Assembly (NCBI RefSeq): GCF_019469165.1
Contig: NZ_CP048263.1
Coordinates: 1,364,001-1,428,000 of the forward strand
Direction: 5' to 3'
DNA length: 64,000 nucleotides
DNA from: Gilliamella sp. ESL0443
GTDB taxonomy: Bacteria > Pseudomonadota > Gammaproteobacteria > Enterobacterales > Orbaceae
Shown here piece by piece: positions 1,236 to 49,362 of this stretch. The first letter of the stretch is position 1. Each line of letters starts with the position of its first letter. A program made the translations under genes and the position numbers. Under the pieces are notes generated by a model. The model did not search any database, was not told the origin of the DNA, and saw only the letters and a list, made by a program, of their open reading frames with translations.

Positions 1236-2090
1236 ATGACCACAAACCTAAAAAACGTATTAACTCAGCTCACTAACCAACAAATCAACCACCTCTATTT
1301 TGCCAATAACCAACAAACGGCACCGCTACATGCTTATCAAGTTGATTTTCCGAGGATCGAAGTGATTATAGAAGGTCAACAGCTTATGCAATGGGCTGAC
1401 AGCAATGGCAAAATAATGACACAACAACTTGAAGTTAATGATCTGCTCTACATTACCGCTAACAGTTGGAACAAACCTATCCGCACAACCCCAATCACCT
1501 GGTTAAACATCTTATTTGGCAAACAGCAAATTGGCATCAGCATTGTTTATTGGGACGGTAACCAATTAATTCCGCTAGCACAAACCAACATACCAAGGCG
1601 AGGTCCACGAGTTGGCACCTTTATTATTCAAGCGCTATCTGAATTGACATGGCAAAATCAACCACAAACGCAAACCGGCTACTACTTGATTCAAAGCCTG
1701 CTTAGTAACACCCTAGATTTACTTAATGCCGACATAAAAACCGCATCAAAAACCACCAGCTTATTCGAAGCAATACGCCAATATATTGATACTCATTTTC
1801 GGGAAGATATAAGCCGTGAATTTCTAGCTAAAATGTTTTATATCTCACCCAACTATTTATCCTATCTATTCAAAAACGAAGGCAAAATTGGCTTAAATGA
1901 ATATCTCAACCATATCCGGATAGAGTACGCAAAATCACTACTTAAAGATTACGACTTAAACGTCAAAGAAATCTCGCTTGAAGCGGGTTTTAAAGATAGT
2001 AACTACTTTTGCCGAATTTTTAGAAAAAAAACAGAACGAACACCCACTGAATATCGACGGCAATATCATAGTAAATTATCGGAAAAGTAA
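1236..2090 (+). CDS. AraC/XylS-family transcriptional regulator
   Basis: This 284-residue protein has an N-terminal effector/cupin-like part (about residues 1-165) and a C-terminal two-HTH AraC DNA-binding domain (about 180-280). The C-terminal domain shows the usual marks: YISPNYLSYLFKNEGKIGLNEYLNHIRIEYAKSLL and ISLEAGFKDSNYFCRIFRKKTERTPTEYRR. The second helix-turn-helix (AGFKDSNYFCRIF) is canonical. It is divergent from fsa, with a CRP site in the shared 230-bp gap, so it probably responds to a sugar. The effector and targets are unknown. It is not RhaS/RhaR-like in its N-terminal half. A stem-loop with a T run follows 49 bp after the stop. Confidence 0.85.
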   Translation: MTTNLKNVLTQLTNQQINHLYFANNQQTAPLHAYQVDFPRIEVIIEGQQLMQWADSNGKIMTQQLEVNDLLYITANSWNKPIRTTPITWLNILFGKQQIGISIVYWDGNQLIPLAQTNIPRRGPRVGTFIIQALSELTWQNQPQTQTGYYLIQSLLSNTLDLLNADIKTASKTTSLFEAIRQYIDTHFREDISREFLAKMFYISPNYLSYLFKNEGKIGLNEYLNHIRIEYAKSLLKDYDLNVKEISLEAGFKDSNYFCRIFRKKTERTPTEYRRQYHSKLSEK

Positions 2091-4229: not shown

Positions 4230-4544
4230 CTAACCTGTAGCAGGGAAAACGATGGGGGTTGCAGATGAAGAATTGGTAGAAGGCGTATATTTAACACTAT
4301 TAGATAACGTAATACCGTTCAGATCATTTGTATCAACCGTTCGAATACAACCATCATCAAACGTTAAATATGGAACATTACCGTGGATAATATTTGAAGT
4401 TTGTTTGGTTAATGCATAGCTGGAAAAAAAGACAGACAGCAAAATAGCTAAAATAGTCTGCCTGAATAATTGAGGAATTATCGCGTTTGAGATCTCTTGT
4501 ATAAACGCCTTAAAAACATGCAAAACATCGGCATTTAACTCCAT
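4230..4544 (-). pseudogene. Truncated adhesin-like paralogue 2 (nonsense mutation and deletion)
   Basis: The 104-residue frame has a signal peptide (IPQLFRQTILAILLSVFFSSYA) and the first part of the ectodomain (NIIHGNVPYLTFDDGCIRTVDTND). It closely parallels NMIHGNPPHLTFDGGRTSTLD in paralogue 3. The frame ends at TAG in the context PATG-stop-SF, where the intact paralogues read G-Q-S-F; a CAG to TAG change would explain the stop. Past it only a few residues continue before another stop, and the remaining ~350 codons are missing. A short secreted peptide could still be made, but this looks like a gene remnant. Confidence 0.75.
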
Positions 4545-4724: not shown

Positions 4725-6119
4725 CTAAGGATAAGTGCAAAACCCTACCGATTTATCATACGAGGGTTCAGCCCAATGTATATGACCATCTGTAGGAAAA
4801 ACGACGAACCGACTCAAACTTTTTTCATCACTGGTCCAGTACCATCGGACGGCGTCAAAGTTGGTTCGATCATATTTGCCTATATTACCCCACTCCGCAA
4901 GCAAGCCTGCACCAATTGTACGCATATAATAATCACCTGATGATGAAGGTGTACCACCAGTAATTTCATAACGTTTTGCATTAGTTAAATCTTTAACTCT
5001 AGAAAGGCGATAACCAATACTTTTACACCAGGATTCCATGCTAGAATAGGTGTAATAGCTTTTACCTCGGTTGACAAACCATTGTTTTAATGTAAAACCA
5101 TATTTAACGATAGCTTTACCTTTACTATCTCGACCAACTAACTCGAATGTCTGAGGCAAAGTAGGCTTAGTAATAGGACCTGGATTGCCGGAATTCCATT
5201 GGGATTGAGTTGCAACAGGGCCAGTTAAGGTAACTCGTGCGCTTGTAGCTGTAACATCAGTCATAGTAGCAGTGATACCACCATGCGAAACAGGAGCCCA
5301 AGATAGTGCCTCAGTATAACCAATCCGCAAATCAAAGAACATGTTGTTAGCTCCAGTAGTTGGAAAGTTTTTACCATAATCTAATGGGTTAGTTGACTGA
5401 GGGAAAAAACCAAGAGAAGGATTGAAAATTTCAGGAGGACCTGCTTTTACACCACCCTCTCCCTCATAAGATAAGCTTGGGCTGACAAAACAAATATCAA
5501 TACCCACAGGTTTGACATAATAAGTGACATTATTGGAATTAAGACTACTACTATTTGGAAGACCATAACGAGTGCTTAATGTACCACCTATAGCCTCTAA
5601 TACAATCCGATAAGGTGCACCACAAGACGTTAGCACTGTATTGCGCGATGATATAGTTCTACCGATTCTATCATAGATAGATAACCTTAAAAAACCAGAA
5701 ATATTAATATCACCATCACCATCATCATCATCCCAATAAGGAAGTAGAATTCTGTCTAATTCGACTGAATCTTCTCCTCTTGGGATGAACATATTTATAT
5801 CAGAAAAGCTTTGACCTTTAGCAGGTAACTCAATTGGTGTTGAAGATGATGAAGTATTGGTTGTAGTCGTGTATCGCTTTCCGTTAGATAACGTAATATT
5901 GAGCAGATAATCAAGATCAAGAGTACTAGTCCGGCCACCATCGAAAGTTAAATGCGGTGGATTACCATGAATCATATTCGTGGTTTTAGAGGTTAATGCA
6001 TGGCTAGAATAAAAAGGTATTAACAAAAAGCCAAGCGGTAAAAAGATCTGCCGAAATAATTTAGATCTGAGAGTTGATCGGAATGATCTAAATGACGATC
6101 GAAATAACGATCGGTGCAA
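4725..6119 (-). CDS. Secreted adhesin-like protein, paralogue 3; ATG out of frame (putative phase-variable)
   Basis: From the weak TTG at 6119 the product has 464 residues: an arginine/serine-rich lead (RSLFRSSFRSFRS), a signal segment (IFLPLGFLLIPFYSSHA), an ectodomain with WDDDDGDGDINISG, and a C-terminal domain with paired cysteines (SWCKSIGYRLSRVKDLTNA ... GFCTYP). It is paralogous to the gene at 2297-3832. The open frame continues upstream from 6119 to a TAA at 6296-6294 without any ATG, GTG or TTG, and the translated upstream part (YNLNSPNLNSKPLFF) still aligns with paralogue 1 (YNLHLLNLSSKSLFF). The homologous ATG, with AGGA 9 nt before it, is at 6262-6260 in another frame, separated by a GTTGCCT tandem repeat. 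As sequenced, translation from that ATG stops after 19 codons. The true CDS probably spans 4725-6262 when in phase. Confidence 0.65.
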   Translation of the reverse strand: MHRSLFRSSFRSFRSTLRSKLFRQIFLPLGFLLIPFYSSHALTSKTTNMIHGNPPHLTFDGGRTSTLDLDYLLNITLSNGKRYTTTTNTSSSSTPIELPAKGQSFSDINMFIPRGEDSVELDRILLPYWDDDDGDGDINISGFLRLSIYDRIGRTISSRNTVLTSCGAPYRIVLEAIGGTLSTRYGLPNSSSLNSNNVTYYVKPVGIDICFVSPSLSYEGEGGVKAGPPEIFNPSLGFFPQSTNPLDYGKNFPTTGANNMFFDLRIGYTEALSWAPVSHGGITATMTDVTATSARVTLTGPVATQSQWNSGNPGPITKPTLPQTFELVGRDSKGKAIVKYGFTLKQWFVNRGKSYYTYSSMESWCKSIGYRLSRVKDLTNAKRYEITGGTPSSSGDYYMRTIGAGLLAEWGNIGKYDRTNFDAVRWYWTSDEKSLSRFVVFPTDGHIHWAEPSYDKSVGFCTYP

Positions 6120-6222
6120 CGATTCACTATGCGATCTTAAATTTTCGTCGAATAATAAACCGGAGTGAAAAAAAAGAGGTTTAGAGTTTAAATTTGGTGA
6201 ATTTAAATTATAGGTTGGCCAA

Positions 6223-6247
6223 GTTGCCTGTTGCCTGTTGCCTGTTG
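6223..6247. repeat. Heptanucleotide tandem repeat (GTTGCCT), 3.6 copies, at the start of an adhesin-like gene
   Basis: Three full GTTGCCT units plus GTTG lie between the ATG at 6262-6260 (minus) and the adhesin-like frame. Because 7 is not a multiple of 3, gain of one unit or loss of two would fuse the ATG to the long frame; the present number does not. Confidence 0.9.
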
Positions 6248-6542
6248 AAAATTGTAATACATATTCGACTATCCTGTCAAGTAAATTTTTGATTTATTTA
6301 CTATTTTATGTTTGTTGATAAAATTTTAGCTATTCAGCTAAATTGATCCGAAAGTATAATAACTGGAAAAATATGACGCAATAAATTTTTTACTTTATAT
6401 TGTTAACTTTTGTAAATGCGATCAAAAAAAGATCCAAATAATTATTTGCTAAATTTGGGTTTAATTGATAAATATCAACTTTATAAATCTTTAAAATTAT
6501 AGTTTTTAATCCAGAGAAAATTTAATTTTATTTAATTTTTGT

Positions 6543-7526
6543 TTATTTATTGATTTCTAGGTAGAGATTTAAATGCCAAAAACCCCGCTCCTCAACTTTT
6601 TTGATTATCATTTTTCGCTCTTCTTGATCAAAAAACGTCCACGCAACAAAACGGCTAATTTTTTGTCCTTGAGCCATAGAGACAATTTTATATTCAGTTG
6701 CCACTTTTAGTTGTTTTTTTATTTTGCTTAGCGTCTCTTTTTTCGATACCAATGAGGTAAACCACAGGCATTGCGTTTTGTATTTGATACTCTCTTTTAT
6801 CATTCTAGTGATAAATGCACTTTCACCCCCTTTGCACCAGAGTTCAGCGTGTTGTCCACCAAAGTTGAGGATGAGATTATCTTTCGTTGAATTTACTTTT
6901 CCCAACTTTTTAAGTTTAGTGTAAGCACTTGCATGCGCTTCTTGTTCGGAGGCGTGAAAAGGTGGATTGCATAGGGTAGCTAGGTAAAATTCTTTAGGTT
7001 GAATGATATTTTCAAAAATAGCTTCGTTGTCAGGTTGTAAGCGACATTGTAATGTGTTTTTTAATAGATCATTAGATTGTGCTATCAATGAAGCAACTTT
7101 TATTGATGTTGGATTGATATCACTACCAACAAATGACCAACCATACTCTGCACAACCAATAATTGGATAAATAATATTCGCCCCAACCCCAATATCTAAA
7201 ATGCGAACCTGTTTACCTGTAGGAATTTGGTTATCTTGCGCTAACAGATCGGCAAGATAGTGTATATAATCTGCTCGTCCCGGAATTGGCGGACATAGAT
7301 AGTTGTCAGGAATATCCCAATACGAAAGTTGATAATAGTGCAATAATAGCGCTTTATTTAGCATTTTTACTGCAGTAGGATCAGCAAAATCAATCGTTAA
7401 CCGTCCATATTGATTAGGCTTTACAAAATTAGATAGCTCGTTCAATGTTTTGATAAGTAAATCAAATGGATAACCATTAATGTGTTTATTGCGGTGGTGT
7501 AAAGCTGTTTTTTTGATTGATTGCAT
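6543..7526 (-). CDS. rlmF: 23S rRNA (adenine-1618-N6)-methyltransferase with unusual C-terminal tail
   Basis: The 327-residue protein shows WDIPDNYLCPPIPGRADYIHYLADLL (residues ~70-95), the SAM-binding DIGVGANIIYPIIG (~111-124), the N6-adenine methylase motif NPPF (187-190), LNFGGQHAELWCKGGE and MAQGQKISRFVAWTFF. It methylates one adenine of 23S rRNA using S-adenosylmethionine. The E. coli enzyme ends soon after the RFIAWTF block. Here about 20 extra residues follow, of which 309-317 (KKVEERGFW) are encoded by a copy of the dispersed 26-bp repeat. The repeat seems to have entered the 3' end and replaced the original stop. Confidence 0.92.
   Translation of the reverse strand: MQSIKKTALHHRNKHINGYPFDLLIKTLNELSNFVKPNQYGRLTIDFADPTAVKMLNKALLLHYYQLSYWDIPDNYLCPPIPGRADYIHYLADLLAQDNQIPTGKQVRILDIGVGANIIYPIIGCAEYGWSFVGSDINPTSIKVASLIAQSNDLLKNTLQCRLQPDNEAIFENIIQPKEFYLATLCNPPFHASEQEAHASAYTKLKKLGKVNSTKDNLILNFGGQHAELWCKGGESAFITRMIKESIKYKTQCLWFTSLVSKKETLSKIKKQLKVATEYKIVSMAQGQKISRFVAWTFFDQEERKMIIKKVEERGFWHLNLYLEINK
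6577..6602 (+). repeat. Dispersed 26-bp repeat, copy B, inside the 3' end of rlmF
   Basis: Identical over 26 bp to copy A at 2146-2171. On the minus strand it is read as KKVEERGF within the RlmF tail. Confidence 0.9.
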
Positions 7527-7606: not shown

Positions 7607-7632
7607 CAAAAACCCCGCTTATCAACTTTTTT
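7607..7632 (+). repeat. Dispersed 26-bp repeat, copy C
   Basis: Same unit as copies A and B, with CTTATC in place of CTCCTC (two mismatches). It lies in the gap between the divergent starts of rlmF and the antiporter gene, the only copy located between two gene starts. Confidence 0.8.
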
Positions 7633-35686: not shown

Positions 35687-35712
35687 AAAAAAGTTGAGGA
35701 ACGGGGTTTTTG
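35687..35712 (-). repeat. Dispersed 26-bp repeat, copy D (inverted)
   Basis: Reverse orientation relative to copies A-C and E, with one mismatch in the GAGGAACGGGG part. It lies between the NtrC-type site and the sigma-54 promoter of glnK, in the DNA that would loop on activation. Confidence 0.85.
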
Positions 35713-49336: not shown

Positions 49337-49362
49337 AAAAAACCCCGTTCCTCAACTTTTTT
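49337..49362 (+). repeat. Dispersed 26-bp repeat, copy E
   Basis: Same unit with A for the first C and GTTCC for GCTCC. It lies between the starts of the DUF2884 gene (minus) and grxA (plus). Confidence 0.85.

Follow-up and report, generated by a model that had tools for sequence, protein, structure and literature searches.

Can the insertion of a short dispersed repeat into the end of a gene, on its own, give a bacterial protein new sequence? The question is raised by rlmF in the window, the whole 64,000-nucleotide (nt) stretch that we analysed from the complete 2.40-Mb genome of a bee-gut Gilliamella species (Gilliamella sp. ESL0443; hereafter, G000), in which the gene runs through a repeat copy before it stops. 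The original prediction was that the repeat had been inserted into a coding end and had created new protein sequence there. Our analysis upholds part of this proposal, in that part of the RlmF C terminus does come from a dispersed repeat, but points to a different history. With a probability of roughly 70%, we favour a reading in which a set of gene cassettes became joined behind rlmF by recombination at an old edge repeat, extending the protein tail, and in which the repeat is not a fresh insertion. The rlmF tail would then be a small, clear case of a gene end rewritten where other DNA meets a gene at a repeat. Feature coordinates are collected in Table 1.

Table 1. Features of the window that bear on the rlmF end, in window coordinates unless marked as genome positions.
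Feature	Position	Strand	Basis
Conserved neighbour beyond R2, taken to be an AraC-type regulator	1236–2090	+	Locus comparison
Repeat copy R2, other edge of the cassette array, same orientation as R1	2147–2168	−	Sequence match
Cassette gene 2, same family as gene 1, 511 aa	2297–3832	−	Family comparison
Cassette gene fragment	4230–4544	−	Family comparison
Cassette gene 1, intimin/invasin-like by predicted fold	4725–6119	−	Family hits and fold search
Cassette leader	6120–6577	−	Leader at genome position 745499 matches at 86% over 480 nt
(CAACAGG)3 tract, preceded by an ATG that is not in frame with cassette gene 1	6227–6247	−	Tract survey
rlmF, 327 aa	6543–7526	−	ORF, PF05971 and NF008725
29 codons after WTF, residues 299–327	6546–6632	−	Translation and structure model
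Repeat copy R1, codons of residues 309–317, left edge of the cassette array	6578–6599	−	Exact match
Repeat copy upstream of rlmF, 2 mismatches	7608–7629	−	Sequence match
Repeat copy	35690–35711	+	Ortholog in G017 and, with slight divergence, in G015
Repeat copy	49338–49359	−	Orthologous copy in G017, diverged in G015

The RlmF tail and the repeat

The window gene passes the curated NCBIfam equivalog model for RlmF, the 23S rRNA m6A1618 methyltransferase (NF008725; 435.6 bits against a cut-off of 302), and a Pfam profile search places PF05971 over residues 5–300 (E = 4.4e-116). As proposed, residues 309–317 (KKVEERGFW) derive from the repeat: their codons span an exact copy of the 22-mer AAAGTTGAGGAGCGGGGTTTTT, past which the frame runs on to a stop after WHLNLYLEINK. 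Two further claims need correction. The WTF block occupies residues 296–298, which leaves 29 residues after it rather than about 20, and E. coli RlmF does not stop at this block but has 14 more residues in the K-12 record, from which its sequence was read instead after E. coli rlmF was not matched by DNA similarity. Same-genus RlmF tails extend 13–29 residues past WTF in the 18 of 25 loci with script-readable ends, the remaining 7 lying outside the search pattern of the script and being left out of this range. Possession of a tail is therefore ordinary; what is unusual in the window RlmF is the last dozen residues. A tail common to all relatives without repeat-like DNA, which would have spoken against an insertion, was absent from this comparison, because the other 17 same-genus tails that could be read all differ from that of the window.

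The structure model of RlmF (mean pLDDT 84.6) has a helix at residues 301–313, and its C-terminal end is predicted to be disordered, with residues 316–327 below a pLDDT of 50. The frame is open through both repeat and leader, and all RlmF members read here have some tail, as might be expected if the tail had been selected as a functional part of the enzyme. We find this most improbable, given that the tail lies beyond the Pfam domain, varies in sequence between lineages and ends in the region modelled as disordered; the extension is probably neutral.

The 22-mer is a genome-wide repeat. The window holds 5 matches at three or fewer mismatches, compared with 0.00 expected from 100 shuffles, and the whole G000 genome holds 125 copies at two or fewer mismatches (66 on the plus strand, 59 on the minus strand), with none for a reversed-pattern control. 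The 105 copies that were fetched give the consensus AAAGTTGAGGARCGGGGTTTTT, and the conserved word slightly exceeds 22 nt, with A-rich sequence before it and mostly GAG or GAA after it. All but 5 of these 105 copies fall outside open reading frames (ORFs) of at least 70 aa called by a simple script. Among the five ORFs overlapped by a repeat, the only one longer than 150 aa besides rlmF is a 325-aa ORF at genome positions 93961–92984 (minus strand; locus L003), which we take to be ferrochelatase-like. It ends in ILQKPRSSTFLTN, with the repeat at 92997–93018, and QKPRSSTF in its end, QKPRSSTFLTN, is an antisense reading of the repeat copy. Across 44 genomes of the bacterial family, matches occur in 10, all within one of the five genera searched; the only match in one of these genomes, G003, has two mismatches. 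G015 has 11 matches and G036, whose genome is 81% complete, has none.

Repeat orientation is biased along the chromosome, with 47 plus and 7 minus copies at 0–0.9 Mb, 2 plus and 29 minus at 0.9–1.375 Mb, and 17 plus and 23 minus in the remainder. KOPS and Ter are replication-linked ideas of polarity that we considered for the repeat. A dif-like site lies at 0.99 Mb and a dnaA match at 1.995 Mb, and the GC skew, measured over twenty 10-kb samples, switches sign near 1.3–1.4 Mb. Replication-linked polarity was rejected: the orientation switches near the dif-like site and the skew flips elsewhere, so that, together with the mixed remainder, no simple replication rule describes the orientation. 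Close inverted pairs of repeats at genome positions 718456/718486, 1552417/1552476 and 2381984/2382024 could possibly fold into GC-rich hairpins and are candidate terminators.

The rlmF end in relatives and the join with the cassettes

Repeat or diverged repeat-like DNA lies at the rlmF-end codons in five of six close relatives, the exception being G022, and sister lineages show differing outcomes at these same codons. G017 has an intact lineage variant of the repeat shifted by one letter in phase, so that its RlmF ends in IKKF at the TGA within TTGAGG. G016 has the first half of the G017 variant and the same stop, the TGA of TTGAGG in another frame. In G034, G015 and G036, a diverged repeat-like stretch is in the frame of the window and closes with a TGA that serves as the stop, giving RlmF ends of QRVEQGTF and QRVEQRTS. 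The window alone has TTTTTGG, with a Trp codon, in place of the usual repeat end TTTTTGA, which gives KKVEERGF and a stop; its translation therefore continues for 11 residues. We read these sequences as suggesting that the repeat was present in the ancestor of the clade, with the stop usually inside it, and that the window is a derived exception. By eye, rlmF codons to about residue 311 align ungapped with outgroup tails, so the tail lysines may be native, and the diverged stretch of G015, G034 and G036 could itself be native rlmF, as outgroup tails resemble the 5′ half of the repeat by eye. The copy upstream of rlmF at 7608–7629 has an orthologous stretch, intact or diverged, in all six of these close relatives.

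These comparisons bear on whether a mobile repeat was recently inserted at the rlmF 3′ end in the window lineage, by itself creating the tail. An exact repeat copy at the gene end, a second gene that also ends in a repeat copy, and the repeat-free G022, which has a different tail and by eye resembles an empty site beside G016, all speak for such an event. It is nevertheless unlikely, given that five other genomes have the repeat, or DNA resembling it, at these codons, which does not fit a fresh insertion in one lineage, and that the final 11 residues lie in a cassette leader, so that the repeat alone did not make the tail. Moreover, a search for the Y1 class of transposases in 35 Gilliamella genomes found no such gene in any that bears the repeat.

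Another possibility is that R1 arose by micro-homology recombination, with a native rlmF end resembling the 5′ half of the repeat and only the 3′ half foreign. By eye, AAA AAG ATT TCA GGA of an outgroup (L067) aligns ungapped to AAA AAA TTT TGA GGA of G017, and AAA AAA GTT GAG GAG of the window also aligns ungapped to the outgroup codons. Lysine codons are A-rich anyway, however, and the likeness may be chance; we consider this origin decidedly unlikely, and it would be compatible with a cassette join at the repeat.

The case for the cassette join is carried by the leader homology. The usual order of a cassette unit is repeat, leader of about 480 nt and gene, and between R1 (6578) and R2 (2147) there are two cassette genes and one fragment. 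The remainder of the Trp codon, the codons for HLNLYLEINK and the stop all fall within the first 35 nt of the leader behind rlmF. We compared twenty 480-nt sequences from downstream of repeats, the stretch behind rlmF included. The leader at genome position 745499 matches the rlmF-side leader at 86% over the full 480 nt, starting at the first base, and 15 other leaders match part of it at 72–77%. These 15 matches start about 47 nt or further past the repeat, so the 35 nt that encode the tail are common to one leader only. Of the remaining sequences, two match weakly and that of R2, which has no following cassette gene, does not match. Similarity is concentrated on one side of the repeat: when the 145-nt flanks of 18 cassette-leading repeats are compared in pairs, 87 of 153 downstream pairs and 6 of 153 upstream pairs are similar, and the rlmF copy has similar partners in 9 of 17 comparisons after the repeat and in 0 of 17 before.

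The homology of the window to its relatives is interrupted over the same interval. BLAST homology to G015, G034 and G036 ends at 6591, inside R1, and resumes at R2 (locus L032) or 37–55 nt beyond it (L031 and L042); the R2 counterpart is intact in L032 and diverged in L031 and L042. Taken alone, the left break is weak evidence, because intergenic DNA diverges and alignments often end at gene ends. The rlmF end and the next conserved gene lie 0.36 kb apart in L031, with a remnant of what we take to be a CRISPR-type array, 1.3 kb apart in L042, with such an array, and 2.8 kb apart in L032, with other genes and such a remnant. The arrays or remnants lie at L042:7150–8140, L031:7150–7260 and L032:7140–9650, in the interval from R1 to R2 that cassettes occupy in the window.

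Presumed CRISPR-type mini-arrays also occur elsewhere, at 795617–795910 in G000 and at about 903.4 kb of C5 in G015 (L176:5430–5600), each ending no more than about 100 bases from a 22-mer copy or its remnant. A move of the block from rlmF to 795.6–795.9 kb of the genome is no more than conceivable: the leader there fits the rlmF-side arrays best (81–83%), but another G015 array comes to 81%. An empty site for a further G000 cassette array, at 1299481–1303544, was considered and rejected, as G017 has another gene and no repeat there.

Our preferred reading, recombination at an old edge repeat, would run as follows. In the clade ancestor, R1 would already have overlapped the last rlmF codons, with R2 before the next conserved gene. 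The interval between them would have been exchangeable, holding cassettes here and, in relatives, other genes as well as CRISPR-type arrays or their remnants. Recombination at the repeat would have brought the cassette leader up against the end of rlmF and probably renewed R1 at the same time; with TGA changed to TGG at the repeat end, RlmF would then read 11 residues into the leader. That the recombination was homologous, and that the events took this order, is what we infer. Several observations weigh against this reading: the match of the tail-coding 35 nt to the leader at 745499 only; the array at 1299481–1303544, where homology to G017 breaks not at the outer repeats but 315 nt before and 198 nt after them; the abundance of the cassette family in Gilliamella without the repeat; and the lack of a repeat at rlmF in G022.

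Apparent upkeep of the repeat, and the cassette family

The repeat appears to be maintained at orthologous sites. In a comparison of G000 with 600 kb of G017, 21 G000 repeat copies had an alignable flank, and at 10 of these G017 has at least 20 of the 22 letters of a lineage-neutral core at the same place; of the other 11, ten align at a single flank, and the copy at 1441108 is spanned in G017 but has diverged. At the 10 kept sites, position 13 is C in nine and A in one in G000 and A in all ten in G017, and position 4 is G in all ten in G000 and A or T in nine of ten in G017. The shift at position 13 is incomplete, since the 16 repeat-like words in the 600 kb of G017 have 12 A, 3 C and 1 T. 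At seven sites the alignment to G017 covers both flanks, which are 65–85% identical; relative to the G017 consensus, six of these sites show 0–2 mismatches and the seventh shows 6. Four spanned counterparts in G015 have 2, 5, 6 and 9 mismatches to the G000 consensus. Judged from these alignments, the repeat looks to have been kept with a lineage-specific consensus in two lineages and to have decayed in G015, taken as G. apicola. Selection and homogenisation would both fit such upkeep.

A tentative proposal, which we hold to be possible though doubtful, is that the 22-nt repeat, rather than being a passive relic, serves as a genome-wide signal recognised by a putative protein, such as a recombinase, DNA organiser or uptake receptor. 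Copies would then stay near-perfect at orthologous intergenic sites, with a consensus that shifts in step across sites between lineages, as a dialect, and the repeat would have decayed in G. apicola, where the reader protein may be lost. If this is true, a signal repeat edges exchangeable CRISPR-type arrays and cassettes of possibly phase-variable, intimin-like surface proteins. We know of no enzyme for this repeat.

The cassette family has 32 hits in G000, of which three are short fragments and one is divergent (36%). A repeat in the same direction lies within 700 bp upstream of 22 and downstream of 19 of the 32 hits, with none in the opposite direction, and 38 of the 125 repeats adjoin cassette-family genes. 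The family is present in 40 of the 44 genomes of the bacterial family, many without the repeat; the repeat therefore does not make the cassette genes. The cassette protein matches no Pfam or NCBIfam model, and no N-terminal beta-barrel was seen by these searches. Its structure model, from four sequences, has a mean pLDDT of 53, with the first 146 residues below 50 and the C-terminal half better. For this half, Foldseek gave invasin (E = 7.8e-6) and intimin (E = 2.0e-5), and VIA aligned the model to invasin 1cwv (Z = 15.2, 234 aligned, rmsd 10.1) and intimin 3ncx_B (Z = 10.8, 172 aligned, rmsd 3.6). The C-terminal part is thus predicted to be an intimin/invasin-like passenger with Ig-like and C-type-lectin-like folds.

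Many cassette genes also have a heptamer tract between a conserved upstream ATG and the gene, which we surveyed in the 23 of 32 G000 hits that lie in fetched stretches. A tract of 2 or 3 CAACAGG or CAACAGC units is present in 16, and the ATG is out of frame in 15 of these and in frame in 1; in the seven tract-free genes, it is in frame in six and there is no such ATG in one. The 15 out-of-frame genes have two frame offsets, one common to the thirteen three-unit genes and the other to the two two-unit genes. In G015, a member whose tract has four units (L149:8643) stays in frame over 529 codons, and a second member, with a different heptamer in three units, meets a stop after 15 codons; a third G015 match (L164) looks unrelated. 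This looks like the layout of a switch for slipped-strand phase variation: the tract sets the reading frame of many cassette genes, and the family may switch on and off. The repeat, confined to one genus of those searched and edging adhesin-like cassettes, merits more attention than the RlmF tail, as do its upkeep and the cassettes; with the tract, they give direct access to the ways in which a bee symbiont may vary its surface.

Comparison with known systems

In the titles and abstract openings of the open-licence PMC papers listed for Gilliamella and Orbaceae, neither the repeat nor the cassette family is described. REP elements are palindromic hairpin repeats, whereas the consensus of the 105 copies is, by eye, polar and not palindromic. 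REP elements with RAYT are treated in PMC3733652; mobilisation by RAYT/IS200 was rejected here, Y1_Tnp (PF01797) being found in 1 of 35 Gilliamella genomes (G020), which has no repeat match.

The enterobacterial RU sequences are closer in outcome. According to PMC2759123, these are small, MITE-like mobile sequences of 103–168 bp that are fused to protein C termini, and an amidase example resembles the present case in that a dispersed repeat took away the regular stop and lengthened the protein by a C-terminal tail beyond the conserved domain. In contrast to RU as presented there, the Gilliamella repeat has 22 nt and no visible terminal inverted repeats, and the tail also draws on a cassette leader. 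No terminal inverted repeats of the MITE/RU kind were seen by eye in a column profile of the 105 copies, and no clean pair of filled and empty repeat sites with both flanks intact, in which a target-site duplication would be visible, was found.

The cassette protein shares with the intimin/invasin family (PMC3008723) a C-terminal part with predicted Ig-like and C-type-lectin-like folds; it differs in its lack of a Pfam or NCBIfam match and of a visible N-terminal beta-barrel. A DNA uptake sequence is one that favours the uptake of DNA during transformation. The dialects of such sequences (PMC7371117 and PMC2397512) are, like the Gilliamella repeat, dispersed short words with a lineage-specific consensus. 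The Gilliamella repeat differs from them in having 125 copies, with 100 of the 105 sampled outside called ORFs.

The neisserial dRS3 repeats and NIMEs, according to PMC3898611, comprise hundreds of repeats of about 20 bp, some flanking variable surface-protein genes. There, dRS3 is given as ATTCCC-N8-GGGAAT, with inverted ends, and as a prophage integrase target; the Gilliamella repeat is not palindromic, and AAAGTTGAGGARCGGGGTTTTT does not fit that pattern. Minimal mobile elements are incorporated solely by homologous recombination, the putative mechanism for the cassettes here too. A parallel for the arrangement behind rlmF is found in the minimal mobile elements of the same paper (PMC3898611), whole-gene cassettes that vary between strains and lie between two conserved genes: the contents between rlmF and the next conserved gene differ in just this way among L031, L042, L032 and the window.
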